IMG/VR virus record: IMGVR_UViG_3300025128_000393
Span: 1 to 21,868 of that record
Reading direction: 5' to 3' (one strand)
Origin: a virus
DNA: 21,868 nucleotides
Below are positions 10,859-21,463 of this stretch, piece by piece (the stretch's first letter is position 1; every line of letters begins with the position of its first letter). The position numbers were made by a program, and so were the translations under genes. Below the pieces are notes generated by a model, which was not told the origin of the DNA, did not search any database, and saw only the letters and a list, made by a program, of their open reading frames with translations.

Positions 10859-11022
10859 TATGCTAAAAAGAAAGCCTCCGCTTCTGACTCATCTTTCAAA
10901 TCTTTTTGATAAGATGTGTTTAATTTTTGTACAATACTATCAACGTCTCTAACAAACGATTGTTGTATTTGTTGATCGTATTCTCTATTTGGTTGTGTTA
11001 ATGATTGTACTATTCTAGCCAT
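10858..11022 (-). CDS. Conserved 54-aa phage protein
   Basis: A 54-codon frame exactly fills the gap between the 714-aa and 113-aa genes. It begins MARIVQSLTQPNREYDQQIQ, continues with a charged amphipathic helix containing FVRDVDSIVQKLN and ends EAFFLA. It overlaps both neighbours by TAATG junctions (upstream stop 11024-11022, own stop 10860-10858). The start motif SLTQPNREYDQQ and the RDVD..VQ.LN..YQKDL pattern match a small conserved protein I recall from marine cyanophages and pelagiphages; its function is not known to me. It is predicted soluble, helical and acidic at the C-terminus. Precise fit, coupling on both sides and the recognisable sequence make it a real gene despite its size. 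Position between tail proteins suggests an assembly or tail-associated role. Confidence 0.85.
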   Translation of the reverse strand: MARIVQSLTQPNREYDQQIQQSFVRDVDSIVQKLNTSYQKDLKDESEAEAFFLA

Positions 11023-13166
11023 TATCTTCTTCCATCCGGTTGTACATCCAATCTAAAAGTACCAAGTTTCCAGTGTTGAGTAACACCAGTGTTATCTACT
11101 TTTAAAGATATAGCTCTTGCTCTAGCACGAGTGTCTATTTTAGTGGTAGTTGTTGAAGATGTAAAAGGTCCTAAAGATGAACTTGCTTGTGCATCTGTTG
11201 GATAATTTTTTAAATTTAATGTAATTCTTGCATTTCCTGTTTGTGTTAAAAAGTCAGGTATAACTCTTCTTATTTTCATCATAAATTCTCCATCCCCTTG
11301 TTGTGGAATAGGTGATTGACCAATATCAAAATCTCCTGATTCAATACTAGCTTGAATAGCAGTTGTTGCGCCTGCTTTAATTTGATTAGTTCCAGTTTCA
11401 TGTTCATAATAAGTTGTACAACCATCAGTGTTTCCAACTGTTGCATCACTTGTAGAGCTTGAATCATATTCAGTACCGTGTGGTTTACCAAATATAGCTG
11501 AGTCTGCCCAAGTAGATCTGGCTAATGAACCTATAGTCCATATAGGCCGCTGACCGCCTGAGTCCATGTAATTATATGTAACATTCCTAGAATTAGATGT
11601 AGCACCACTTCCTGGGTAAAACCAACTTACTTCACCAAACAAATTATTTAATCCTGCATAAATATGTTGTCTAGGCACATCTGCTAAACCATCATAAACA
11701 AAATCTTCAACTAAACATGGTAGTGATTGTAGTTGTCCAGTGTATCTAAAAAAACCATTTTCTGACATCCAATATGCAGAACCATCAACCTCAACTGCTG
11801 CGTTCTGTCCGATTAACCCACAGTTAGTTCCAACTTGTTGAAACGAGAAAGTAAATGGTGGACCAACAAATCTCATAATAAACAACGCTGTATCAGTCCA
11901 AATATAAATTGCATCACGACCTCTAATTGCTCCAACAATTCTTGTACCATCTGCAAGTCTTTGTGTACCCGCAGTGTTAATTGAAGTTGGAGTCCAATCA
12001 GTTAATGATTCTTGATCTGACCATCTAATATACATATCGTCTTGTGTAGAAGTTGTTCCAATAGTCGTTTCTGATCCAAAAGAAATTAAGTGTCTGTCTG
12101 GTGTAGAAACTAAAGTAAATTGTGATGCAGTAGGACAACCACTTATAAGTGTTGCTCTAGTAGAAGTTGCACCTGTTGCATTAGAGTTCCATTCAAAACT
12201 TGAACCGTCTGCAATAGTTGCAATAAGTTTATTACCAAAATTATCTAACGACCACATACCAGGAGCTGTTACAATGTCACCTGTTTGTGATGCACCCCAT
12301 TTAGTATAGTCTGATGCATTAGTTACAGTAGCTGCATCACTGTGCGATGCTGCTGTTGTGTTATCTGATCCTCTAGTTAAACCTGATAAAGTTCCTGTAC
12401 CAGTTGTATTTGTTGTATAAGCAATTCTTTCATCGTCGATTACAACAGTTCCTGATGCAGGAAATCCGTTTGAGTCATCAAGAACAATACTTGTTGAACC
12501 TGAAGTTAAAGCTCCATCTAAAGTAGATGTAACTGCACCCAATGCAGTACCACCCCATAATCCAAGACCCCAACCAGCAGCTGACTCTTCAACTGCAGGT
12601 CCAATTGAATAGTAGTGTTGAACTCTTATTCCACCAGATGTTGAAGCACCTGATCCCGATTCATTCGACCCCATTTCAATTGTAATTGTTGTTGAAGTAG
12701 GGACGGTTGCAACCATGAATACTTTATCATCAAAATCACCAGAACTAAAATTAGAATTAGTAATAGCGGTAAAATTATCTAACTTAATAATATCGTATTG
12801 ATTAATGTTATGAGCAGATGCAAACGTAATCGTAACTGTAGCGTCACCGTTTGTTGTTGTAAATGCGTTTGTTAATGTTGTTGTAGCTTTAATAGGAGTA
12901 ATGTCATAAAATGCACCTCCTGAATATACATATAAAATTCTGTTTGTACCTAATGCTGAATATTTAATACCATCTGAATTAACAAATTGGTGCATAGCAG
13001 TTGTTCTGCCAGTTAAAGTAATATCTCCTAACTGTGCCCAACCACCTATTTTTTCAGGTGAACCATATCTAAATCTTATATTATCACCATCAACCCATTG
13101 GCCTTCGCCACCTGTTGCTGTAACTTGTTTATTAATCCCAGGTTGAAATCTTAATTTTTGTAGCAT
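11022..13166 (-). CDS. P22 gp10-like tail / packaged-DNA stabilisation protein
   Basis: This 714-aa protein starts with FQPGINKQVT, then EGQWVDGDNIRFRYGSPEKI and GGW. This N-terminal signature is typical of a broad phage family annotated as packaged-DNA stabilisation or tail accessory protein, related in role to P22 gp10. Such proteins sit under the portal and close the channel of short-tailed phages. Residues about 85-290 contain Thr/Ser-rich beta segments that look inserted (TTLTNAFTTTNGDATVTITF; a repetitive region with SGSTSIVLDDSNGFPASGTV). Beyond about 300 the sequence suggests a beta-propeller-like fold with repeated W/G-rich blades (MYIRWSDQESLTDW, DAIYIWTDTALFIM, YWMSENGFFRYTG). The ATG at 13166 lies 15 bp after the preceding gene. 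The tail role is well supported by the N-terminus; exact equivalence to gp10 is inferred. Confidence 0.85.
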   Translation of the reverse strand: MLQKLRFQPGINKQVTATGGEGQWVDGDNIRFRYGSPEKIGGWAQLGDITLTGRTTAMHQFVNSDGIKYSALGTNRILYVYSGGAFYDITPIKATTTLTNAFTTTNGDATVTITFASAHNINQYDIIKLDNFTAITNSNFSSGDFDDKVFMVATVPTSTTITIEMGSNESGSGASTSGGIRVQHYYSIGPAVEESAAGWGLGLWGGTALGAVTSTLDGALTSGSTSIVLDDSNGFPASGTVVIDDERIAYTTNTTGTGTLSGLTRGSDNTTAASHSDAATVTNASDYTKWGASQTGDIVTAPGMWSLDNFGNKLIATIADGSSFEWNSNATGATSTRATLISGCPTASQFTLVSTPDRHLISFGSETTIGTTSTQDDMYIRWSDQESLTDWTPTSINTAGTQRLADGTRIVGAIRGRDAIYIWTDTALFIMRFVGPPFTFSFQQVGTNCGLIGQNAAVEVDGSAYWMSENGFFRYTGQLQSLPCLVEDFVYDGLADVPRQHIYAGLNNLFGEVSWFYPGSGATSNSRNVTYNYMDSGGQRPIWTIGSLARSTWADSAIFGKPHGTEYDSSSTSDATVGNTDGCTTYYEHETGTNQIKAGATTAIQASIESGDFDIGQSPIPQQGDGEFMMKIRRVIPDFLTQTGNARITLNLKNYPTDAQASSSLGPFTSSTTTTKIDTRARARAISLKVDNTGVTQHWKLGTFRLDVQPDGRR

Positions 13167-13181
13167 ATTAAACTCTATTTA

Positions 13182-13700
13182 TTATGCGGATACCCAAGCT
13201 GTACCATTCCAATCGTAAATTGTTGGTGTTTCCGCGTTGTCGTTTGATTTTATTGCCTCCCAACCTTTAGTATTATCAGAATTATATTTAGTTTCATTCC
13301 AAGCAGTTATGTATCCCCATACAGGTGGATCTTCGCCATCATCAATTACTGATGGATAAGTTATTGGTGCTTTCCAATCATCACTACCATCTAGTGACCA
13401 TGAAGCATAAGGTTGTGGGCATATAAATTTGTCTTTTGATGCATCGTATCTATATCCAATACCTGCATACTGTTTTCTAAAACTATTACTATAAGAAGTT
13501 TGTTTAAATTCTGTATTTGGTTTTTTAAAAAAATTTTTACACCATGTTTCTCCATCAACATGGCAATCATTATTTCCTAATGTGCCACCTCCTGCTGATA
13601 TATCATCTGCTACAACTGTAACTTGTTTAACTATTAAATGGGTATCAGATGTAAATCCTGTTGGATCTGTTTTTGACTCTAATTCTGCAAAGTGTGCCAT
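13182..13700 (-). CDS. Conserved virion-associated protein (cyanophage/pelagiphage type)
   Basis: This 172-aa protein begins MAHFAELE and contains the conserved core FKQTSYSNSFRKQYAGIGYR, then YDASKDKFICPQPYASWSLD and repeated tryptophan-containing short beta strands (WKAPITYP, VWGYITAW, WNGTAWVSA). This pattern is very common in T4-like and T7-like marine cyanophages and pelagiphages, where it is encoded near tail genes and left as hypothetical. Three W-rich repeats near the C-terminus look like small beta-hairpins. The ATG at 13698-13700 follows a good SD (AAGGAGT, 13713-13707), one of the few strong sites in the block. It sits between the oxygenase cassette and the gp10-like tail gene. Identity as a known but uncharacterised family is confident; function is unknown. 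Confidence 0.82.
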   Translation of the reverse strand: MAHFAELESKTDPTGFTSDTHLIVKQVTVVADDISAGGGTLGNNDCHVDGETWCKNFFKKPNTEFKQTSYSNSFRKQYAGIGYRYDASKDKFICPQPYASWSLDGSDDWKAPITYPSVIDDGEDPPVWGYITAWNETKYNSDNTKGWEAIKSNDNAETPTIYDWNGTAWVSA

Positions 13701-13737: not shown

Positions 13738-14373
13738 TTACTTTTTAGATACTGTAAACCCTTTGTACCATTCAGGTAAACCTAGAAATGGTCTTTTATC
13801 AAACTCATTTTCTTTAGCTATTTTAGATCCTTTACGATTATAATGTAGAAACACCTGTCCGCAATCTTTTCCTTCAAATTCTTCTCGCCAATGTTCTAAA
13901 TCACAGCCAGAATAAATTAACATATCTCCTGGTCCTAAATCTATTTTAATACCAGCTTGACCTCTTTTGCCTGTTGGGTCTAAATATATTGGCCATGGGT
14001 CACCACCTAAGTTTAATGTAGTGGATATTTCACATGAATATCTGTCTTTGTGTCTAGCTAAAACATCTCCTTTTTTATAAATTCTTGCATAAGAATAGGT
14101 TTCAGATAATTTCATACCTGTATGTTTTTCCATTACAGGCTTTACTTTTTGTAATAAAGTTTCCATAACTATATCTCCATAATGTGCATAAGTATTGGGC
14201 GCTTGTGGATCATTCCATCTTCCCCAATATTCAGTAAAAGGTGAAATATATTTTTGATCAAATAAAAATTTTGCTACTTTTCTTTTATTTAAAAAATAAG
14301 AATAAGCAAAATCTGCTATCTCTTTTGATACAGCTTTTTTTAATACGCTGTATTTATTTTTTTTGAAAGACAT
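13738..14373 (-). CDS. 2OG-Fe(II) oxygenase, phage type (211 aa)
   Basis: This protein has the double-stranded beta-helix signature of 2-oxoglutarate/Fe(II) oxygenases: the iron ligands are H108 and D110 in LARHKDRYSCEISTT, with distal H161 in GCDLEHWREEF. Between them lie GGDPWPIYLD and IDLGPGDMLIYSG, typical of the minor and major sheets. The end of the fold is GQVFLHYN, where many relatives have an arginine that binds 2OG; here no obvious basic residue occupies that place, as in related cyanophage proteins I recall. It couples 2OG decarboxylation to hydroxylation of an unknown substrate. The gene overlaps the 3' end of the fusion gene by 20 nt and precedes the 172-aa virion gene by 37 bp. 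Enzyme family is well supported; the substrate is unknown. Confidence 0.87.
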   Translation of the reverse strand: MSFKKNKYSVLKKAVSKEIADFAYSYFLNKRKVAKFLFDQKYISPFTEYWGRWNDPQAPNTYAHYGDIVMETLLQKVKPVMEKHTGMKLSETYSYARIYKKGDVLARHKDRYSCEISTTLNLGGDPWPIYLDPTGKRGQAGIKIDLGPGDMLIYSGCDLEHWREEFEGKDCGQVFLHYNRKGSKIAKENEFDKRPFLGLPEWYKGFTVSKK

Positions 14374-15832
14374 TTAATGCTCCTTTAGGTATTGCTTGAC
14401 AGTTAAAATGTATAAATCTAAATGGCTCATATCCCATATCTACTACATATTGATGCGGCATATAAGATGGAAAAAATATCATTTTTCCAGGGTTTGCTTC
14501 ATAACTTATTTGATGACTTGCATAAGTTATTTTAGTTGGATATTTTTGAGGTAAAAGATTCATCATATTACCTGGTCTTGGGTCTTCAAACATAGGCTTT
14601 GATGTTTTTTCACTGCCTTTTAAAAAGTAAAAACCAGATATATGTCCATTCCAATGAGTATGTAGTGTATGGTGTCCTCCTCCATCTTTAGCAAATTCTT
14701 GTACCCACATTTCTGTAGTAAATACTTGATATTGAGTTAAATCAAAGCCCATCTCATTTAATAAATTATGAGATGTTGCACCTACATAATTTTGTAATTC
14801 TAAAAAATTAGGATCATCAATTAAAGTGCTTGAATGAAATACGTGACCCATATCTCCTTTATCACCAAATTTTTTATTTCTTTTATTAATATCTTTTTTT
14901 AAATTTTTCTTAGCTTGCTTAATATACTTATCAGATGCTTTATTTAAATCTTTAACAAAACTTGGTTCGTCTGCAAACCATATGGGACACTGAAAATAAT
15001 TTTCTCTGTTTAATTTTTTTGGAAATGCTTTAGCACTTTCACATGATATCTTATCAAACTCTTTTTGAGTCTTTACTTTTCTTGCTTTTTTTTGTTTCTT
15101 TTTCATTACATACACCTCATATGTTTTACCTGTAAGCAAACTTCTATACTCATCGTTAATATAAATTTCCCTCAACGTTTTATTGTTCCAAAACATATGT
15201 TTACTTATGGCACATCCAACCCCCACATTATTACCTATATCCTTGATTTTAATTATTTCAAAATATCTTTCAAATATACTTTTATTGATAGATAAATCAG
15301 AAGAAGAGTGGATTAAAAAACCATCTTTTTTAAGTAATCTAACAGCTTGTTGGCAATATTTTTCCAAAGGCTCAAAGTATATTTCTGCTTCAAGGCAGGT
15401 GATTATATCAAATTTATTGTCTGCTAAAGGTATATTAGTAGCACTGGCATTTAAAAAATTAACATTACTATCTCTTTTTGAGGCATGTTTAATATGGTTT
15501 GGGTTTAAATCTACTCCAAATACAGATTTAAATTTGTAATAATCTTTGTAAAAAGATGCTCCACCACCTTGTCCACACGCTACATCCAATAATTCTATAT
15601 TTTTATTGTTTATATCAATACCTGCTGTTTCTAATAAAACATTGTATAGATTTACTTGATAAGTCCAAGGTTTCCATTTACTAGATAAGTTTAAAGGACC
15701 ATTAGTAGGCATATTATCATCATCTAAATAGCAATAGCCATCATTCATAAACAAAGCAATCCCGAGTATATTAAAATCATCATATCTCTTAATTAGTTCA
15801 AATTCTTTTTTGGTCAGTTTTATCTTTTTCAT
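14354..15832 (-). CDS. Fusion: SAM methyltransferase + 2OG-Fe(II) oxygenase-like domain
   Basis: This 492-aa protein joins two enzymes. Residues about 55-180 are a class I SAM methyltransferase: motif I LLDVACGQGGGASF (81-94), acidic D108 in FGVDLNPNHI, then ATNIPLADNKFDIITCLEAE and LLKKDGFLI. The GGGAS and EAEIYF pattern is closest to small-molecule or lipid methyltransferases of the Methyltransf_11 kind. A lysine-rich linker follows (about 243-260). Residues about 278-482 resemble the TIGR02466-type 2OG-Fe(II) oxygenases: NYFQCPIWF start, H391-T-H393-W-N then SGFYFLKG, FEDPRPGN, GKMIFFPSYMPH with distal H460, and R472 in FRFIHFN. The ATG overlaps the upstream stop by 4 nt. A second in-frame ATG at 15106 has its own SD-like GAGG. 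The fusion and family calls are strong; the substrates are unknown. Confidence 0.86.
   Translation of the reverse strand: MKKIKLTKKEFELIKRYDDFNILGIALFMNDGYCYLDDDNMPTNGPLNLSSKWKPWTYQVNLYNVLLETAGIDINNKNIELLDVACGQGGGASFYKDYYKFKSVFGVDLNPNHIKHASKRDSNVNFLNASATNIPLADNKFDIITCLEAEIYFEPLEKYCQQAVRLLKKDGFLIHSSSDLSINKSIFERYFEIIKIKDIGNNVGVGCAISKHMFWNNKTLREIYINDEYRSLLTGKTYEVYVMKKKQKKARKVKTQKEFDKISCESAKAFPKKLNRENYFQCPIWFADEPSFVKDLNKASDKYIKQAKKNLKKDINKRNKKFGDKGDMGHVFHSSTLIDDPNFLELQNYVGATSHNLLNEMGFDLTQYQVFTTEMWVQEFAKDGGGHHTLHTHWNGHISGFYFLKGSEKTSKPMFEDPRPGNMMNLLPQKYPTKITYASHQISYEANPGKMIFFPSYMPHQYVVDMGYEPFRFIHFNCQAIPKGALNVFQKK
15104..15118 (-). promoter_or_regulatory. Possible internal translation start for the oxygenase half
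   Basis: Within the fusion gene the minus strand reads GAGG (15118-15115), eight nucleotides, then ATG (15106-15104) at residue 243. This sits exactly at the boundary between the methyltransferase domain and the lysine-rich linker. Initiation here would make a free 250-aa oxygenase. The site may be chance, because it also encodes YEVYVM, but its position is striking. Confidence 0.35.
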
Positions 15833-16461
15833 TTAAAAGGCCATCCTAAATTCCATATTACTAAACTATATCTCGATCCTTTTTTAACGGGGCATACTCT
15901 GTGCCACACAAAAGAAGGAAACACCACTAAAGATCCTTTAGGAAGTATATCCTTACATTTTATAGTCTTCTGTTTTTTATCAGAATCCATATCTCTAAAA
16001 TCAAATTCTAATTCTCCTCCAGTGTAATCTTTTTCACCTTCGTTTAAAGAAACTGTAACAGATAGTTTTCTAATTTTTCCATTTGACTGATCTCCTTCTT
16101 GTCTTTCATAGGGTTTGGACCAACTATCGCGATGCCAATCATAATACTGTCCTTTATTATATTTTGTAAATTGACAAGGTTCAGACCAATCCCATTGAAA
16201 ATTCCAATTAGCAGAATTATTTGCTTTTTGCACATATGGTTGAATTTCTTTGTAAATCCAACGATCACTCATCCATACAATATTAGAATCTCTTTTCTTT
16301 TTTAAATCTTTAATTTGTTTTTTATTTAAATTTTTTGTATTACTAACACCTCCCGTAACCGCCATTTGGTCTTGTAAAGATTTTCCATATTTTATAATGT
16401 CATCACAAAGTCTGTGAGGAATTACTGATTGAAAATACCAATAATAATGATTTAAATTCAT
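15829..16461 (-). CDS. 2OG-Fe(II) oxygenase, prolyl-4-hydroxylase-like (210 aa)
   Basis: This is a full-length small oxygenase with all expected catalytic residues. H110 and D112 lie in YYDWHRDSW and distal H187 in FPSFVWHRVCPV; R197 in GSRYSLVIWNLG is placed to bind the 2OG carboxylate. A KLSVTVSLNEG strand and YTGGELEF turn, hallmarks of the prolyl 4-hydroxylase/PKHD-like group, lie between them. It needs Fe(II), O2 and 2OG; the target is unknown and could be a protein side chain or a small molecule. The gene lies 4 bp after the 160-aa gene and overlaps the fusion gene by ATGA. Its leader is purely A/T with no Shine-Dalgarno sequence, suggesting low or coupled translation. Enzyme assignment is strong. 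Confidence 0.9.
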   Translation of the reverse strand: MNLNHYYWYFQSVIPHRLCDDIIKYGKSLQDQMAVTGGVSNTKNLNKKQIKDLKKKRDSNIVWMSDRWIYKEIQPYVQKANNSANWNFQWDWSEPCQFTKYNKGQYYDWHRDSWSKPYERQEGDQSNGKIRKLSVTVSLNEGEKDYTGGELEFDFRDMDSDKKQKTIKCKDILPKGSLVVFPSFVWHRVCPVKKGSRYSLVIWNLGWPFK

Positions 16462-16465
16462 ATAA

Positions 16466-16948
16466 TTAAAAATAATTAAAATTAATTACATACCTTTCTT
16501 TTCCATCAGTATTAAATTGTACTTTGTGGTTTATCATAGAATCAAAGATAACTAAGGTATTTTCTATTCCTTTAACTTTTTTACCATTTTCAAAAATGGT
16601 TGTAGCATTAGTAGTGTTGATATAAAATAAAGCAGTTTTACACGGGTATGTTTCATCCACATGAAATCGAGAACAAACTTTTTCTTTTTTAGGTAGATTA
16701 AAATTTATTCTAGATAAAATTAATGCTTTATAATCTAAATGCTTTTTAAAATAATCAGGTATTATATAATAAAATTTTGAATTAGGGTTAGATTCTCTAT
16801 ATAAATAATGTTGAAAAAGAAATCCATCTGAACTTTTTCCGTGAGTTAATTTTGGTTTATAAAACCAAGGAAAAATATCAGTAGTAACTGCTTCTTGTAT
16901 GTGTTTTAATTGTTCTTCTGTTAGAATATCTTTCTTAATTTCAAACAT
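16466..16948 (-). CDS. Small 2OG-Fe(II) oxygenase-like protein (160 aa)
   Basis: This compact protein carries an iron-site pattern: H96 and D98 in SRFHVDETYPCK, distal H141 in DSMINHKVQF, and R152 in ERYVINFNYF as probable 2OG anchor. ALFYINTTNATTIFENGKKV and NTLVIFDS, between them, fit the strands and turn of the jelly-roll core. Similar short proteins occur in T4-like marine phages. It is shorter than the usual 190-220 aa, lacking much of the N-terminal helical support, but the core appears complete. It is the first gene of the oxygenase cassette and lies 46 bp after the glycine-rich protein gene; the gap is A/T only, with no clear ribosome site or terminator. The enzyme call is reasonably strong, the substrate unknown. 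Confidence 0.82.
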   Translation of the reverse strand: MFEIKKDILTEEQLKHIQEAVTTDIFPWFYKPKLTHGKSSDGFLFQHYLYRESNPNSKFYYIIPDYFKKHLDYKALILSRINFNLPKKEKVCSRFHVDETYPCKTALFYINTTNATTIFENGKKVKGIENTLVIFDSMINHKVQFNTDGKERYVINFNYF

Positions 16949-16994: not shown

Positions 16995-18035
16995 TTACGA
17001 AATAGTTAAACAACCATTTGCTGTAAATGTAGCCACCTTATCGTTAGCGGGACCTACACAAGATGTTACTGACCCCCCTGGAGTTACTGATACAGTTGCA
17101 CAAGCAGGGACTCTCACAGCTACAAAACCTGGTCCACCACTTCCAGCGTGACCTGGAGTTAAAGAACCTCCAGCGCCATAACCGCCGCCTCCGCCACCAC
17201 CTCTATTAGTAGTTCCTGCTGTACCTGCAGCACCTCCTGGAGCACCTGCTCCACCTGTTCCACAAGGACTTCCAGCTGCAGCGCTGTTTACATATGCACT
17301 GGCAGCACCACCTCCGCCACCTGCGTAGCTAACGGCACTTCCTGTAATAGCGTTTGGATTACCAGCTCCACCTCTTCCAGAAGTTGTTCCTGGTGCGTTG
17401 TCAGCAGGTTTAGGTGGTTTTTCAGAAGCTCCACCGCCTCCCCCAAATGCACTTGGGTTTGCATAACTTGGAGATCCTGTCGGCCAACTGTTTGGTGCAC
17501 CATCATAACCTTCAACTGGATCATAACCTCCAGCATTACCAGATCCTCCTGCTCTTTCACCACTAGCAGGGCCAGGTCCTTGACCTCCGCCTCCACCAGA
17601 GCCTCCACCAAGACCACATCTAGTTGGTGAAGGGGCTGAACCACCACCTCCACCGCCACCACCTCCAGTGGCAGTAACTAAACAACCAAGACTTGAATTT
17701 GCTCCTGAATTTCCTCTTGTAGTTCGAGCAACAATAGCACCACTACCGCCGCCTCCAACAACTACAGCATAAGTTCCTGCAGCAATTGATAAAGCTGCAC
17801 TTCGAGATGCACAAGGTCCATATCCAGATGCTCTATAACCTCCAGCACCGCCACCTCCAGCACCACCAGAGCCTCCACCAGCTATTACTAAATAGTTTGC
17901 AGCATATTCTGCTGCTGCCGAAACTCCAACGCCAAATCCTAAAATTTGGTAACCAAAAGATTTGCCTCTATTTTGTGGTTTTTTTGAACCTTTACCTTGT
18001 GATTCTAAATTAAAAAAATTATTTAAATCTTTCAT
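16995..18035 (-). CDS. Glycine-rich tail-tip / adhesin-like protein
   Basis: This 346-aa protein contains about 100 glycines, mostly in runs (up to nine) between residues 49 and 305. The N-terminal region (about 12-36: GKGSKK, SFGYQILGFGVG) resembles a leader seen on other marine phage tail proteins. ANYLVIAGGGSGGAGGGGAG opens the glycine-rich domain, as in Gly_rich_2-type proteins. The C-terminal 40 residues form a Thr/Val-rich beta segment ending NGCLTIS. Seven cysteines are spread through it, unusual for a phage surface protein. Polyglycine-II sandwich domains are known in phage adhesins such as S16 gp38, which bind receptors at the fibre tip; a similar role is inferred. It lies 5 bp after the fibre gene and directly before the oxygenases, which makes it a candidate substrate for them. 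Confidence 0.8.
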   Translation of the reverse strand: MKDLNNFFNLESQGKGSKKPQNRGKSFGYQILGFGVGVSAAAEYAANYLVIAGGGSGGAGGGGAGGYRASGYGPCASRSAALSIAAGTYAVVVGGGGSGAIVARTTRGNSGANSSLGCLVTATGGGGGGGGGSAPSPTRCGLGGGSGGGGGQGPGPASGERAGGSGNAGGYDPVEGYDGAPNSWPTGSPSYANPSAFGGGGGASEKPPKPADNAPGTTSGRGGAGNPNAITGSAVSYAGGGGGAASAYVNSAAAGSPCGTGGAGAPGGAAGTAGTTNRGGGGGGGYGAGGSLTPGHAGSGGPGFVAVRVPACATVSVTPGGSVTSCVGPANDKVATFTANGCLTIS

Positions 18036-18040
18036 ATTTA

Positions 18041-21000
18041 TTACGCATCGTTAGCAGCATCAGTTGTAAAAAATATTTTAATGCCATGTAATCTCATATC
18101 ACCATCCATATCGTCATTACCATCAGATACATCTCTACCAATTCTAAAATAACAAAGATCATTATCTGCTGGAGTTCCTGCAATTGTTACTGCACCACTT
18201 TCAGCAGTAACATTTAATTCTTCAACGGCTCCTTGTGCATCATCTGTAACAACTACAGCTGTTCCATAAGCAACATCAATAGTTTCATTATCATTCATTG
18301 CTACACCCTCTAATGATATAGCAACACCAGTAGTGGCCGCTATACCAGACCAAAAACATTGAAAAGTAACTGTACCTAAATTCCATGACTTAGGAAAAGC
18401 CACAGCAAATTGAGCAAACTCGTCACTATCTTTATCAAAATCTAAAACATTCATATCAGGTCTACCTGAAGTTGTTTCCACTGTTGCTAAAGTAGCACAA
18501 CCATTTGAAGTTGTAGGTGTCATAGCTTGTGCGGGAACCCATATAGTTTGTTTTCCTGCTTCAGCTAATGTTCCTACACCATCTAATTTATTTAATTCTG
18601 CTGCTGTTGATGTAACATTAGTTCCACCAATATCTAAAGTTGTCATTTGAACTTCGCCTGCAACAGTTAATATAGCTGAACCTAAAGTTAATAAATCTGT
18701 ATCACCTCCACCACCTATTGTACCACCGCTTTTAATTACAAGATCATCTTTAACTGTAAGAAGTCCAGCAGAAGATATTGTTAATGCATCATTAGTTGAA
18801 GCAACACCAATAGTACCACCATCTTTAATCATTAAATCATCTGCAATAGTTAATAGTCCAGCAGAACTTAAACTCATTTTTGAAGATGCAGCTTCGCTTG
18901 CTCCAGTGTGAAATTCTAATTTTGTAGCATTATTAGAAGAACTAAAGTCTCCTTCTGAAACTGCTTGAATTGCAGCGGCTACCAAAATAGCATCTGTTCC
19001 AGTCCCTTCATCAGGAGCTTGGAATCTAATAGCACCCATAACATCATTTGCTGCCATGTCTGTTTCACCAGTTTGTAGTGTTAATACAATTGGTTTGTCA
19101 TCAGCTGTAGCTGTGTGTTTTAATTTTAATCCAACATCAGCGTCATGTGTAAGTGTAATTTCTGAATCAGCACCAAAAGTTAAAGCTGCTGCATCTGAAA
19201 TTAAACCAAGATCATCACCAACAGTTAAATCTGTTGCAACCTTAACAGTTGTATCATCATCTAAAGTTAATACAGTTGTTCCATCGTATTGTTTAAATAT
19301 TAAATCATCTGTATCAACTTCTAATTTAATTACTTGAGCACCTGCAGTGCCATCCATATCTAATGTTAATTGTAATGTTCCTGCATCTTTAAATTCTACA
19401 TTTCCACCTGCTGCATCTAGAACAATATCTGCTGTTGCATCTAAAGTAATATCAGCGCCAGAATCTATTTCTGCAATTATAGGAGTAGTTAAAGTTTTGT
19501 TTGTTAAAGTATCTTCTGAAACAAGAGATACTAAAGTTGAACTAGCACCAGCTGGTAAAGTTAAAGTATTTGTAACACTAGCCGAGTGAGGTTGTGCAAT
19601 AACTATTTGACCATGTGAATTAGCTTCACAATTAAATTGTATAGCACCTGAATTAGTATCACCTTTAATTGTTACATGGCCTGTACCTTTTGCTACTATT
19701 TCAAGATCAATATTAGAATCACCACCTGTTGCTGATAATAGTGGAGCACCACCTGTTGCAGCATTTGTAATATCAAATTGGTTAACTGCTGAACCTGTTG
19801 TTTGAAATATAATTTGTTCATTACCATTTTCATCTGCTATAAAATGTGCATCATCAATTAAAATATTTGCAGAGTTAGTATCTAAATCACCACCTAATTG
19901 AGGTGAAGTATCTTCTACTATATCTGCTATTGCACCAGATGTAGCAAGTCCTGCTACAATTGCTGATCGTGCAATTTTTTTAAGTCCACCACCCGAAGTA
20001 TCTACTGCTATAAAAACATCATCATTAGCAACTGTAGATATTTCTGATAAATCACCTGCGGCAATTGAATTAAAGTTTGTACCATCTGCAACTAATAAAT
20101 TACCTGCAGTGTTTGTACCCATAGTAATATCATCACCTGATACTGTAAGATCTCCTGATATAGTTAAATTACCACCAGATGATAAAGACATTTTTTCAGC
20201 TGCTGCTTCTGAAGCACCTGTTTTAAAACTTAATTTTGTAGCATTTGAAGAAGAACTAAAGTCACCTTCAGAAACTGCTTCAATACCTGCTGCAACTAAT
20301 ATTGCATCTGTTCCCGTTCCTTCATCAGGTGCTTGAAAATCTATTTTACCAATTACATCATTTGCTGCAATATCTGTTTCCCCTGTTTGTAATGTTAAAG
20401 AAACAGGTTTATCATCAGCAGTTGCTGTATGTTTTAAAGTTAATCCTGTATCAGCAACGTGTGTAAGTTTTATTTCTTGATCGTCACCAAAATTTATAAC
20501 AGCTCCATCTGCTAAAAATAAATCTGAAAATTCTAATGAAGTAGTACCAAGAGTGGCTCCATCAGATGCATCCGGAACAAAAGCTGTTGTTGCTGTAATA
20601 GTTGTTGCTTGAAAAGTTCCATTTGTTGTTAAACCTGTATCTGCTGCGTGAGTAACAGTTATATCTGAATCTGCACCAAAACTTAGTACAGCAGAGTCAC
20701 TTAATAATTTAACATCATCACCAAATACTGCATCTTTTGCTACAGATAAACCACCATCAGTTTGTAATGATCCATCTGTTGTAGAAGTTGCTTCAGTAGT
20801 ATCATCTGTTTTTACAATACCACTAGCTGTAACTGTTGTAGCAGTTAATGCTTGTGCAGCAATCGTGCTGCCTGCTTGTGCAGTAAAAGTATTTGCAGTA
20901 AATTGAAAATCATCAGCTCCTGCAATTTTAATATCTATTTGGTCATCAGTATCTGCTGTAATACTTGTATCCGCATCAGCATCTAAAATTAATTCATTAC

Positions 21001-21463
21001 CATCTAAGTCATGATCTCCAGTAGATGCAATACCTGTATCAACTAAATTTGGATTAGTTGCATGATCAGCTGTTGCATAAACAAGTTTAGTTCCTTTGTC
21101 TGTTGCAGCAAACGTAACTGAACTTCCTGAACCAGTAGCATATTTAAATTGAACTGTATAAGCACCAGATGTGCCATTAACTAAAACATACATCTGTTGA
21201 ACATCTAAAGGAATTGTTACAATTTGATTTCCAGTAATTGTTCCAGTAAATTTTATAATTCTATGCGCAAGAACTGCATCTACTGACCCATCAGAAACAG
21301 ATAATGTTGTTGTATCAGCTGAACCCCCTATATCTTGTTCTATATAACCACCAGCTATTTGTTCTACAATTTGTAAATTGGTGTTGGTAGTTGTTCCCCA
21401 TGTACCGGCATTTTCGCCGGTTGTCATTAGTTCTGTTCCAAGACCTGTAAAACTTGATGCCAT
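18041..21463 (-). CDS. Tail fibre / receptor-binding protein with internal repeats
   Basis: This 1140-aa protein has a fibre layout. Residues 1-135 form a conserved base containing FTGLGTELMTTGENAGTWGT and YVLVNGTSGAYTVQF, which I recognise from marine phage fibres. Residues about 135-960 are Asp/Thr/Ala-rich beta repeats with recurring LTISGDL, FGADSEITLTH and ILDADAD-type units. A block of about 110 residues occurs twice (about 321-432 and 759-871; shared EGTGTDAILVAA and SEGDFSSS). Residues about 965-1140 (TIWVPAQAMTPTTSNG to TDAANDA) match a C-terminal domain common on such fibres, likely receptor-binding or trimerising. The ATG at 21461-21463 follows AGGAGAA (21473-21467), overlapping the upstream stop. 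A fibre role is strongly supported by composition and domains; the receptor is unknown. Confidence 0.9.
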   Translation of the reverse strand: MASSFTGLGTELMTTGENAGTWGTTTNTNLQIVEQIAGGYIEQDIGGSADTTTLSVSDGSVDAVLAHRIIKFTGTITGNQIVTIPLDVQQMYVLVNGTSGAYTVQFKYATGSGSSVTFAATDKGTKLVYATADHATNPNLVDTGIASTGDHDLDGNELILDADADTSITADTDDQIDIKIAGADDFQFTANTFTAQAGSTIAAQALTATTVTASGIVKTDDTTEATSTTDGSLQTDGGLSVAKDAVFGDDVKLLSDSAVLSFGADSDITVTHAADTGLTTNGTFQATTITATTAFVPDASDGATLGTTSLEFSDLFLADGAVINFGDDQEIKLTHVADTGLTLKHTATADDKPVSLTLQTGETDIAANDVIGKIDFQAPDEGTGTDAILVAAGIEAVSEGDFSSSSNATKLSFKTGASEAAAEKMSLSSGGNLTISGDLTVSGDDITMGTNTAGNLLVADGTNFNSIAAGDLSEISTVANDDVFIAVDTSGGGLKKIARSAIVAGLATSGAIADIVEDTSPQLGGDLDTNSANILIDDAHFIADENGNEQIIFQTTGSAVNQFDITNAATGGAPLLSATGGDSNIDLEIVAKGTGHVTIKGDTNSGAIQFNCEANSHGQIVIAQPHSASVTNTLTLPAGASSTLVSLVSEDTLTNKTLTTPIIAEIDSGADITLDATADIVLDAAGGNVEFKDAGTLQLTLDMDGTAGAQVIKLEVDTDDLIFKQYDGTTVLTLDDDTTVKVATDLTVGDDLGLISDAAALTFGADSEITLTHDADVGLKLKHTATADDKPIVLTLQTGETDMAANDVMGAIRFQAPDEGTGTDAILVAAAIQAVSEGDFSSSNNATKLEFHTGASEAASSKMSLSSAGLLTIADDLMIKDGGTIGVASTNDALTISSAGLLTVKDDLVIKSGGTIGGGGDTDLLTLGSAILTVAGEVQMTTLDIGGTNVTSTAAELNKLDGVGTLAEAGKQTIWVPAQAMTPTTSNGCATLATVETTSGRPDMNVLDFDKDSDEFAQFAVAFPKSWNLGTVTFQCFWSGIAATTGVAISLEGVAMNDNETIDVAYGTAVVVTDDAQGAVEELNVTAESGAVTIAGTPADNDLCYFRIGRDVSDGNDDMDGDMRLHGIKIFFTTDAANDA
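18850..19190 (-). repeat. Fibre internal duplication, C-terminal copy
   Basis: This stretch encodes the second copy of a block of about 110 residues (LKHTATADDKP, LQTGETDMAANDV, GTGTDAILVAAA, SEGDFSSSNNATKL, KMSLSSAGLLTI). It is near-identical in protein sequence to the copy at about 20165-20500. The nucleotide sequences are diverged at many third positions, so this is an old duplication or one kept by selection. Boundaries are approximate. Confidence 0.8.
20165..20500 (-). repeat. Fibre internal duplication, N-terminal copy
   Basis: This is the first copy of the block (LKHTATADDKP, LQTGETDIAANDV, GTGTDAILVAAG, SEGDFSSSSNATKL, KMSLSSGGNLTI). A partial third echo (FGADSDITVTHAADTGLTTN) lies further towards the N-terminus at about 20630-20690. 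Boundaries are approximate. Confidence 0.8.

Follow-up and report, generated by a model that had tools for sequence, protein, structure and literature searches.

A glycine-rich putative tail-tip adhesin and its neighbouring 2OG-Fe(II)-type oxygenases: a candidate adhesin-class-matched tailoring module of phages

Gene order at the locus and the glycine-rich protein

The window, by which we mean the whole 21,868-base virus record IMGVR_UViG_3300025128_000393 analysed here, holds a single co-oriented gene run in the order P0006, P0001, P0002, P0003, P0004, P0005, P0007 and P0008 (Table 1), whose members overlap or are separated by at most 46 bp according to their ORF coordinates. By the same coordinates, 5 bp separate the glycine-rich gene P0001 from the 1140-aa fibre gene on its 5' side and 46 bp separate it from P0002 on its 3' side, and the oxygenase-like genes P0002-P0005 are spaced by 4 bp or overlap. 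By its P0008 the phage falls near pelagiphages HTVC027P and HTVC023P and near phage 023Pt_psg01 (41-48% identity class), and relatives of P0003 or P0005 were found in HTVC033P, HTVC023P, 023Pt_psg01, HTVC008M and Mosig.

Table 1. Features of the fibre, adhesin and oxygenase gene run in the window.
Feature	Position	Strand	Basis
Tail fibre F (P0006, 1140 aa)	18041..21463	-	phrog_31104 E 1.5e-51, strongest over residues 1-303
Glycine-rich tail-tip adhesin, predicted (P0001, 346 aa)	16995..18035	-	phrog_2295, predicted model, structural matches
O2, short 2OG-oxygenase-like (P0002, 160 aa)	16466..16948	-	phrog_274 E 5.4e-37, weak 2OG matches
O3, PKHD/PiuC-like 2OG-Fe(II) oxygenase (P0003, 210 aa)	15829..16461	-	PF13640 E 4.4e-19
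O4, SAM methyltransferase + TIGR02466/2OG-FeII_Oxy_5 fusion (P0004, 492 aa)	14354..15832	-	Pfam, TIGR02466
O5, predicted prolyl-4-hydroxylase-fold oxygenase (P0005, 211 aa)	13738..14373	-	phrog_2954 E 7.2e-50, model
S7, partner gene (P0007, 172 aa)	13182..13700	-	phrog_7759 E 3.1e-26, function unknown
S8, virion structural protein (P0008, 714 aa), 3' boundary of the module	11022..13166	-	phrog_3287 E 9.8e-103

The order that recurs in relatives is fibre, glycine-rich gene, S7, O3, O4, O5 and S8, and the T4-like cyanomyoviruses S-SM1 and S-RSM4 share it in that an annotated tail fibre is followed by the glycine-rich gene, S7 and the oxygenase cluster. Among 13 named-phage stretches, all chosen by oxygenase or S8 matches, seven carry both glycine-rich and oxygenase genes and six carry oxygenases only within the stretch; the oxygenases of HTVC027P lie on the other strand. 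The gene most often found directly 3' of glycine-rich genes belongs to the S7 family, also on contigs where no oxygenase was detected, and the window departs from this usual placement in that its S7 lies 3' of the oxygenases. The S7 protein is perhaps a candidate chaperone or assembly factor, or a second tip protein. Six aligned members of its family begin with MAHFA. The C-terminal part of fibre F, for its part, probably carries the adhesin P0001.

The P0001 ORF runs from ATG to stop and encodes 102 glycines, 23 prolines and seven cysteines (positions 75, 118, 140, 258, 312, 326 and 342), in agreement with the initial annotation, which had counted about 100 glycines in 346 residues together with scattered prolines and seven cysteines. 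We regard it as a real gene because it matches the phrog_2295 profile of glycine-rich phage proteins (E 2.3e-25, residues 41-342), scores 23.7 bits against Pfam Gly_rich_2 (PF21722), close beneath the curated cut-off of 24.3, and has a homologue at 90% identity in contig L088. A sequence search of the PDB returned no match, nor did tblastn against the phage collection, the latter probably because low-complexity masking hides glycine-rich sequence.

The predicted model of P0001 (pLDDT 85.6, pTM 0.84, from 46 alignment rows) combines beta and glycine-rich parts in a fold common to the glycine-rich tail proteins of Bxb1 and Pam3, matching the Bxb1 tail-tip chain 9d93_Qb with a VIA Z of 12.8 over 179 residues and the Pam3 fibre 7ypx_A with 11.9 over 170 residues, yet identity to the Bxb1 tail-tip protein and Pam3 gp24 is 26-28%. 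The glycine-rich domain of ALK/LTK scored Z 4.9-5.6 and unrelated rows at most 3.7, and Foldseek returned no match to the model at E <= 0.001. According to the available portion of PMC9608196, Pam3 gp24 forms a complex with the chaperone gp25, the distal loops of the Pam3 domain are the proposed receptor-binding site, and gp24 is said to resemble S16 gp38. Taken together, the structural scores and the receptor-loop proposal make P0001 most likely a tail-tip adhesin of the Bxb1/Pam3 type, so that structure prediction lends support to the adhesin assignment first made from the letters. The polyglycine adhesin gp38 of Salmonella phage S16, whose polyglycine-II sandwich served the initial annotation as its model, has glycine runs as P0001 does, and was absent from the structural matches listed for the model. 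P0001 contains no long collagen-type Gly-X-Y repeat, only two five-triplet stretches that both fall within glycine runs, and the parallel to collagen drawn in the initial annotation finds no support in that form.

The oxygenase-type enzymes

The count of four oxygenase-like genes given earlier for this locus stands, with the refinement that one of them is a fusion and two are recognised by weak sequence matches or by fold. Judged from its sequence, P0003 is clearly a 2OG-Fe(II) oxygenase, as it scores 69.7 bits against PF13640 (2OG-FeII_Oxy_3; cut-off 27) and its HxD, H and R residues are invariant in six of six aligned sequences; its matches to the PiuC chains 9ghl and 9qn1 are weak (E 3e-4 to 4e-4). 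P0004 joins a methyltransferase (Methyltransf_11, E 1.2e-17) to an oxygenase-type half (2OG-FeII_Oxy_5, PF13759, E 1.5e-13; TIGR02466, E 3.6e-18), and such a fusion looks rare, since only three of 7705 scanned ORFs match the methyltransferase half. Across O4 the HxD pattern is mostly missing, with 55 of 354 matching. For P0002 the matches to 2OG models are weak and fall under their cut-offs, and PHROGs names its family, phrog_274, 'DNA endonuclease V'; an HxD...H...R/K pattern, C-terminal in P0002, is present in 64 of 69 O2-labelled ORFs, and the endonuclease label may be a misnomer.

P0005 has no relevant match in Pfam, and PHROGs labels its family, phrog_2954, 'ferrochelatase', a name repeated in passages of PMC9599517 and PMC11561400. 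Its model (pLDDT 95.2) finds as best PDB match the prolyl-4-hydroxylase of Pseudomonas putida (4j25, 4iw3; E 3.1e-9), followed by PHD2 entries (5.7e-7 to 1.8e-6) and by other 2OG enzymes, small-molecule ones among them. The fold and the HxD...H arrangement are alike in P0005 and in the P. putida and PHD2 enzymes, at an identity of 9-15%. Residues Y99, H108, D110, H161 and R163 are identical in all 59 aligned sequences of the family; no placement was reached for the 2OG-binding basic residue, and R163 is invariant. Ferrochelatase is absent from the 50 fold matches listed, and not one of the 59 O5 sequences reaches E 0.01 against a ferrochelatase model in Pfam. Given this absence and the prolyl-hydroxylase fold, we take the label, as applied in pelagiphages and cyanophages, to be wrong, and P0005 to be a predicted 2OG-Fe(II) oxygenase of prolyl-hydroxylase fold. 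The initial annotation had one prolyl-4-hydroxylase-like gene among the four; the prolyl-hydroxylase fold seen here in a predicted model is that of the 'ferrochelatase'-labelled P0005. When the O3 and O5 families were compared by profile, no significant match emerged, so that any kinship between them is one of fold.

These results bear on the published reading of such genes, found in PMC9599517, PMC11561400, PMC12753301 and PMC3037559, by which the oxygenases and the 'ferrochelatase' serve auxiliary metabolism and steer 2-oxoglutarate, nitrogen, iron or haem metabolism in the host. The first of these reports notes that the 2OG-Fe(II) oxygenase and 'ferrochelatase' genes are often co-located in HTVC023P-type pelagiphages, the same phage group and gene families as in the window; it treats the partner genes as auxiliary metabolic and the ferrochelatase as a true one, and the terms glycine, hydroxyl- and tail fiber do not occur in its text. 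The O5 fold and the lack of any ferrochelatase match speak against such a role, as do the placement of the genes inside a structural gene run and an enzyme subtype that follows the adhesin class more closely than the phage backbone, and we consider this reading improbable.

Co-occurrence of oxygenases with adhesin classes

To the initial annotation, the link between adhesin and oxygenases would be undone if the glycine-rich gene commonly stood without oxygenase neighbours in close relatives. Loci were collected through S8, blind to the glycine-rich gene and the oxygenases, and 30 of the 80 were scorable, having at least 5 kb 5' of S8. Glycine-rich and oxygenase genes occur together in 18 of these and oxygenases alone in ten, among them L042 and L070, whose small glycine-rich protein falls under the glycine threshold; two have neither, and no scorable contig has a glycine-rich gene without oxygenases, so that all 18 glycine-rich relatives carry them. 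Most of the oxygenase-only contigs, among those listed, hold other repeat proteins.

A second sample of at least 119 loci was gathered with a degenerate DNA pattern for glycine-rich genes that ignores oxygenases; of 600 candidate stretches from a search with a glycine-rich alignment as query, a mere 12 had been confirmed, which low-complexity masking is likely to explain. Contigs that end early were left out of the scoring, leaving 55 of 119 loci in this pattern sample, and 36 of 80 and 48 of 80 for the repeat classes K1 and K2 described below (the K2 list being without L083). Among the matches listed, the region up to 4 kb 3' of the adhesin contains an oxygenase in 17 of 21 contigs below 40% GC, but in five of 34 contigs at or above 40% GC. 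On the test across genomes for which the initial annotation had asked, the two kinds of gene thus stay together in close relatives (18/18), where the refuting case did not arise, but their link is not universal (5/34). The eight contigs with only O4 or O2 near the glycine-rich gene have 41-55% GC. L238, L242, L287, L292 and L322 (about 50% GC) each have just one O4-type gene, some 200 aa long, near the glycine-rich gene, and in phages of this kind the two are often separated by a small ORF (about 90 aa).

Nor are the oxygenases peculiar to glycine-rich proteins. Two repeat classes, which we call kelch-like as a name of our own for repeats of which a Pfam scan of one member per family found no match, carry them at the same locus: K1 ('GNATDFGDL' repeats) in 21 of 21 scorable contigs below 40% GC and in two of 15 at or above it, and K2 ('NGTSWTEVNDLNTAR' repeats) in 46 of 47 scorable contigs below 40% GC. 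Hence the oxygenases have more partners than the glycine-rich protein. From their place and their repeats we infer that K1 and K2 are adhesins; class membership was set by our own motif and composition rules. Members of the two kelch-like families occupy the position of the glycine-rich protein in, for example, L060 (380-5482) and L083 (3751-6488). K2 has a small partner gene of its own in 57 of 57 contigs of at least 5 kb with oxygenases. Among contigs of this length with oxygenases, O5 is present in 93 of the 113 with a glycine-rich gene, 37 of the 57 of class K2 and none of the 47 of class K1; repeated contigs are possible in these counts and in that of the K2 partner gene.

Enzymes that act on the adhesin, or on its behalf, would be expected to vary in subtype with adhesin class even where the backbone does not. 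We counted class changes on FastTree trees, some with long branches, and compared them with shuffled class labels. Over 82 contigs and three classes, the O3 tree requires two changes, the minimum (shuffles 23-34), and the S8 tree requires 21 (shuffles 25-34), which lies under all shuffles and indicates that S8 follows class weakly. The corresponding values are two for O4 and 21 for S8 over 76 contigs, and two for O5 and ten for S8 over 61 contigs and two classes. Several contigs came in twice with differing locus names (e.g. L034, L092, L174), such that the 82 rows represent 76 different contigs and repeats are possible in all of these main tree counts. In a reduced set of 56 contigs, from which the window, named phages, repeats and oxygenase-fetched loci had been removed, O3 changes twice and S8 16 times (shuffles 20-32), and in the S8-anchored loci alone (26 contigs) the values are two and five. 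An earlier run of 92 contigs that included the mixed class GB gave 11 changes for O3 and 30 for S8; leaving out its ten GB contigs yields the 82, and tail-collar phages such as HTVC027P lie outside the class trees.

On the 5' side, over 87 contigs (again with repeats possible), the N-terminal 200 aa of the fibre change class 24 times (shuffles 21-28), the full fibre eight times and O3 three times; without oxygenase-fetched loci (56 contigs) the fibre N-terminus changes 18 times (shuffles 16-27) versus three for O3. The fibre N-terminus does not track adhesin class, then, and the full-length fibre does so in part. An earlier test over 36 contigs and two classes was uninformative (fibre N-terminus five, S8 four, shuffles 4-6). 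Because S8 and the fibre N-terminus track class far less than O3, the travelling unit is bounded and comprises the fibre end, adhesin, partner genes and oxygenases, and the coupling of adhesin class to oxygenase set is well supported.

Such a unit could also arise if adhesin and oxygenases merely share a recombination block beside the fibre and have unrelated functions. The block is indeed exchanged between backbones, and PMC3909814 describes marine phage islands with low metagenomic recruitment as holding both adhesins and Fe(II) oxygenases. Linked hitch-hiking fits less well with flanking genes that travel far less (21 changes for S8 and 24 for the fibre N-terminus, against two to three for O3), with a layout that recurs in podoviruses and T4-like myoviruses, and with a proline difference (see below) that is seen in glycine-rich adhesins and absent from unlabelled proteins, fibre, S7 and S8; we judge it decidedly unlikely. 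Far less credible still is a role of the oxygenases in DNA repair or modification, proposed for cyanophages in the available text of PMC3037559 and PMC9146016, with which the position of some relatives beside uvsW/uvsY in S-RIM2 would agree; a link to adhesin class is not expected from it, and the window's genes stand among tail genes.

Composition of the adhesins and their proposed modification

Among the matches listed in the pattern sample, glycine-rich adhesins beside O3 or O5 have 6.35% proline (25 contigs), against 3.42% (8 contigs) for those with only O4 or O2 and 2.85% (40 contigs) for those with none, a contrast by oxygenase neighbours with an AUC of 0.95. Of the 40 without oxygenase, four reach at least 4.7% proline and one reaches the 6.6% of P0001, which is thus richer in proline than most such relatives. 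Proline codons are GC-rich, and low-GC phages are therefore expected to contain less proline, not more. The gain is confined to this class in our comparisons: fibre, S7 and S8 show no increase with oxygenases, K1 and K2 proteins do not differ in proline with and without oxygenase, and unlabelled proteins from contigs with oxygenase (20) and without (39) contain 3.73 and 4.11% proline, which is not different, and do not differ in cysteine either, although Asp, Lys, Tyr, Thr and Gly differ at p < 0.05. Glycine-rich adhesins with oxygenases are also higher in cysteine (0.88 versus 0.21%), Asp and Lys, and lower in Tyr and Thr. The proline and cysteine contrast is confounded with lineage, since the S8-anchored set has no glycine-rich contig without oxygenases. 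With that reservation, the proline contrast fits hydroxylation of prolines in the glycine-rich class by O3 and/or O5.

Two narrower targets were set aside. Cysteine as a general target is out, as the glycine-rich protein has no cysteine in S-SM1, S-RSM4 and HTVC008M, three of four myovirus stretches (Mosig has four), and K1 proteins are lower in cysteine with oxygenase. A proline-rich loop (GNTPPxxPPQG in many relatives) was considered on the strength of its PPQG motif, found in 78 of 147 contigs with oxygenases and four of 45 without (repeats possible), and was dropped since the window's P0001 lacks the loop.

We propose, at a probability of roughly 55%, that the cassette is a tailoring module matched to adhesin class, with the adhesin as the likeliest substrate of the oxygenases. 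In the window, a pelagiphage-like podovirus would then carry an exchangeable module for host recognition, consisting of the fibre end, the glycine-rich tail-tip adhesin, S7 and class-matched 2OG-Fe(II)-type oxygenases. After synthesis of the adhesin, the oxygenases would hydroxylate its side chains, in the glycine-rich class most plausibly prolines of variable loops, through O3 and/or the prolyl-hydroxylase-fold O5, and the hydroxylation may shape or stabilise the receptor-binding tip; the substrate, the residues modified and the benefit are all our inference. P0001 as the modified substrate, the suggestion made in the initial annotation, gains from the co-occurrence, the class-matched subtypes and the higher proline and cysteine, and loses its exclusivity in that the oxygenases also accompany other classes. 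Adjacent genes can, moreover, be co-exchanged without acting on one another.

The main rival supposes that the enzymes alter the host surface structure bound by the adhesin, in order to block superinfection or release progeny, so that the match of enzyme set and adhesin class would reflect a common receptor, with the adhesin left unaltered. Receptor modification of this kind accounts for class-matched co-inheritance equally well, and the sulfotransferase genes of K1 and K2 cassettes would suit glycans. It does not predict the doubled proline of glycine-rich adhesins beside O3 or O5, and the best fold match of O5 is a protein prolyl hydroxylase, albeit with small-molecule 2OG enzymes also listed; on balance we find it rather unlikely. 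From the class matching, a part in completing or tailoring the tail tip seems more likely for the enzymes than one in host metabolism.

Giant viruses co-encode collagen-like proteins with prolyl or lysyl hydroxylases. The window resembles these systems in pairing a structural protein with a hydroxylase-type enzyme, and differs from them in having no Gly-X-Y repeat and several enzymes that are matched to adhesin class. The classing of Fe(II) oxygenases under host recognition is already known: Table 1 of PMC3909814, on marine metaviromic islands, files eight Fe(II) oxygenase genes under 'Host recognition', and its available text names no mechanism, adhesin class or partner. No published proposal that these oxygenases modify adhesins was found in the open-licence literature, which leaves most subscription journals outside, and the accessible part of a transcriptome paper gave no timing of oxygenase expression.

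More broadly, and tentatively, very abundant ocean phages might modify their receptor-binding tips by chemical means, with a co-inherited oxygenase set for each adhesin class and extra enzymes in some. Were this so, the classes concerned would be the glycine-rich, the two kelch-like and perhaps the tail-collar adhesins, host-range variation would have a post-translational layer, and many of the 2OG oxygenases and 'ferrochelatases' that are tallied in marine viromes as auxiliary metabolic genes would in fact modify adhesins; many counted genes could move into the host-recognition machinery. The match of subtype to class and the P0005 fold turn the enzyme-substrate question into a direct test by virion mass spectrometry.

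Some relatives have, in addition, genes for a halogenase, sulfotransferase, methyltransferase or acetyltransferase in the cassette. Halogenase genes occur in seven of 118 glycine-rich contigs of at least 5 kb with oxygenases and in none of 68 without, and sulfotransferase genes in 20 of 47 K1 and 23 of 57 K2 contigs with oxygenases and in none of 14 and two of 16 without, where repeats are possible and 'without oxygenase' may include contigs that end inside the cassette. The natural substrate of phage halogenases may lie on the virion. Tryptophan-halogenase-type genes were seen within adhesin and oxygenase cassettes at L070 8234-9751 and L073 5607-6992, and L488 634-3745 (S-RIM44) has two annotated genes of this type in tandem beside oxygenases.
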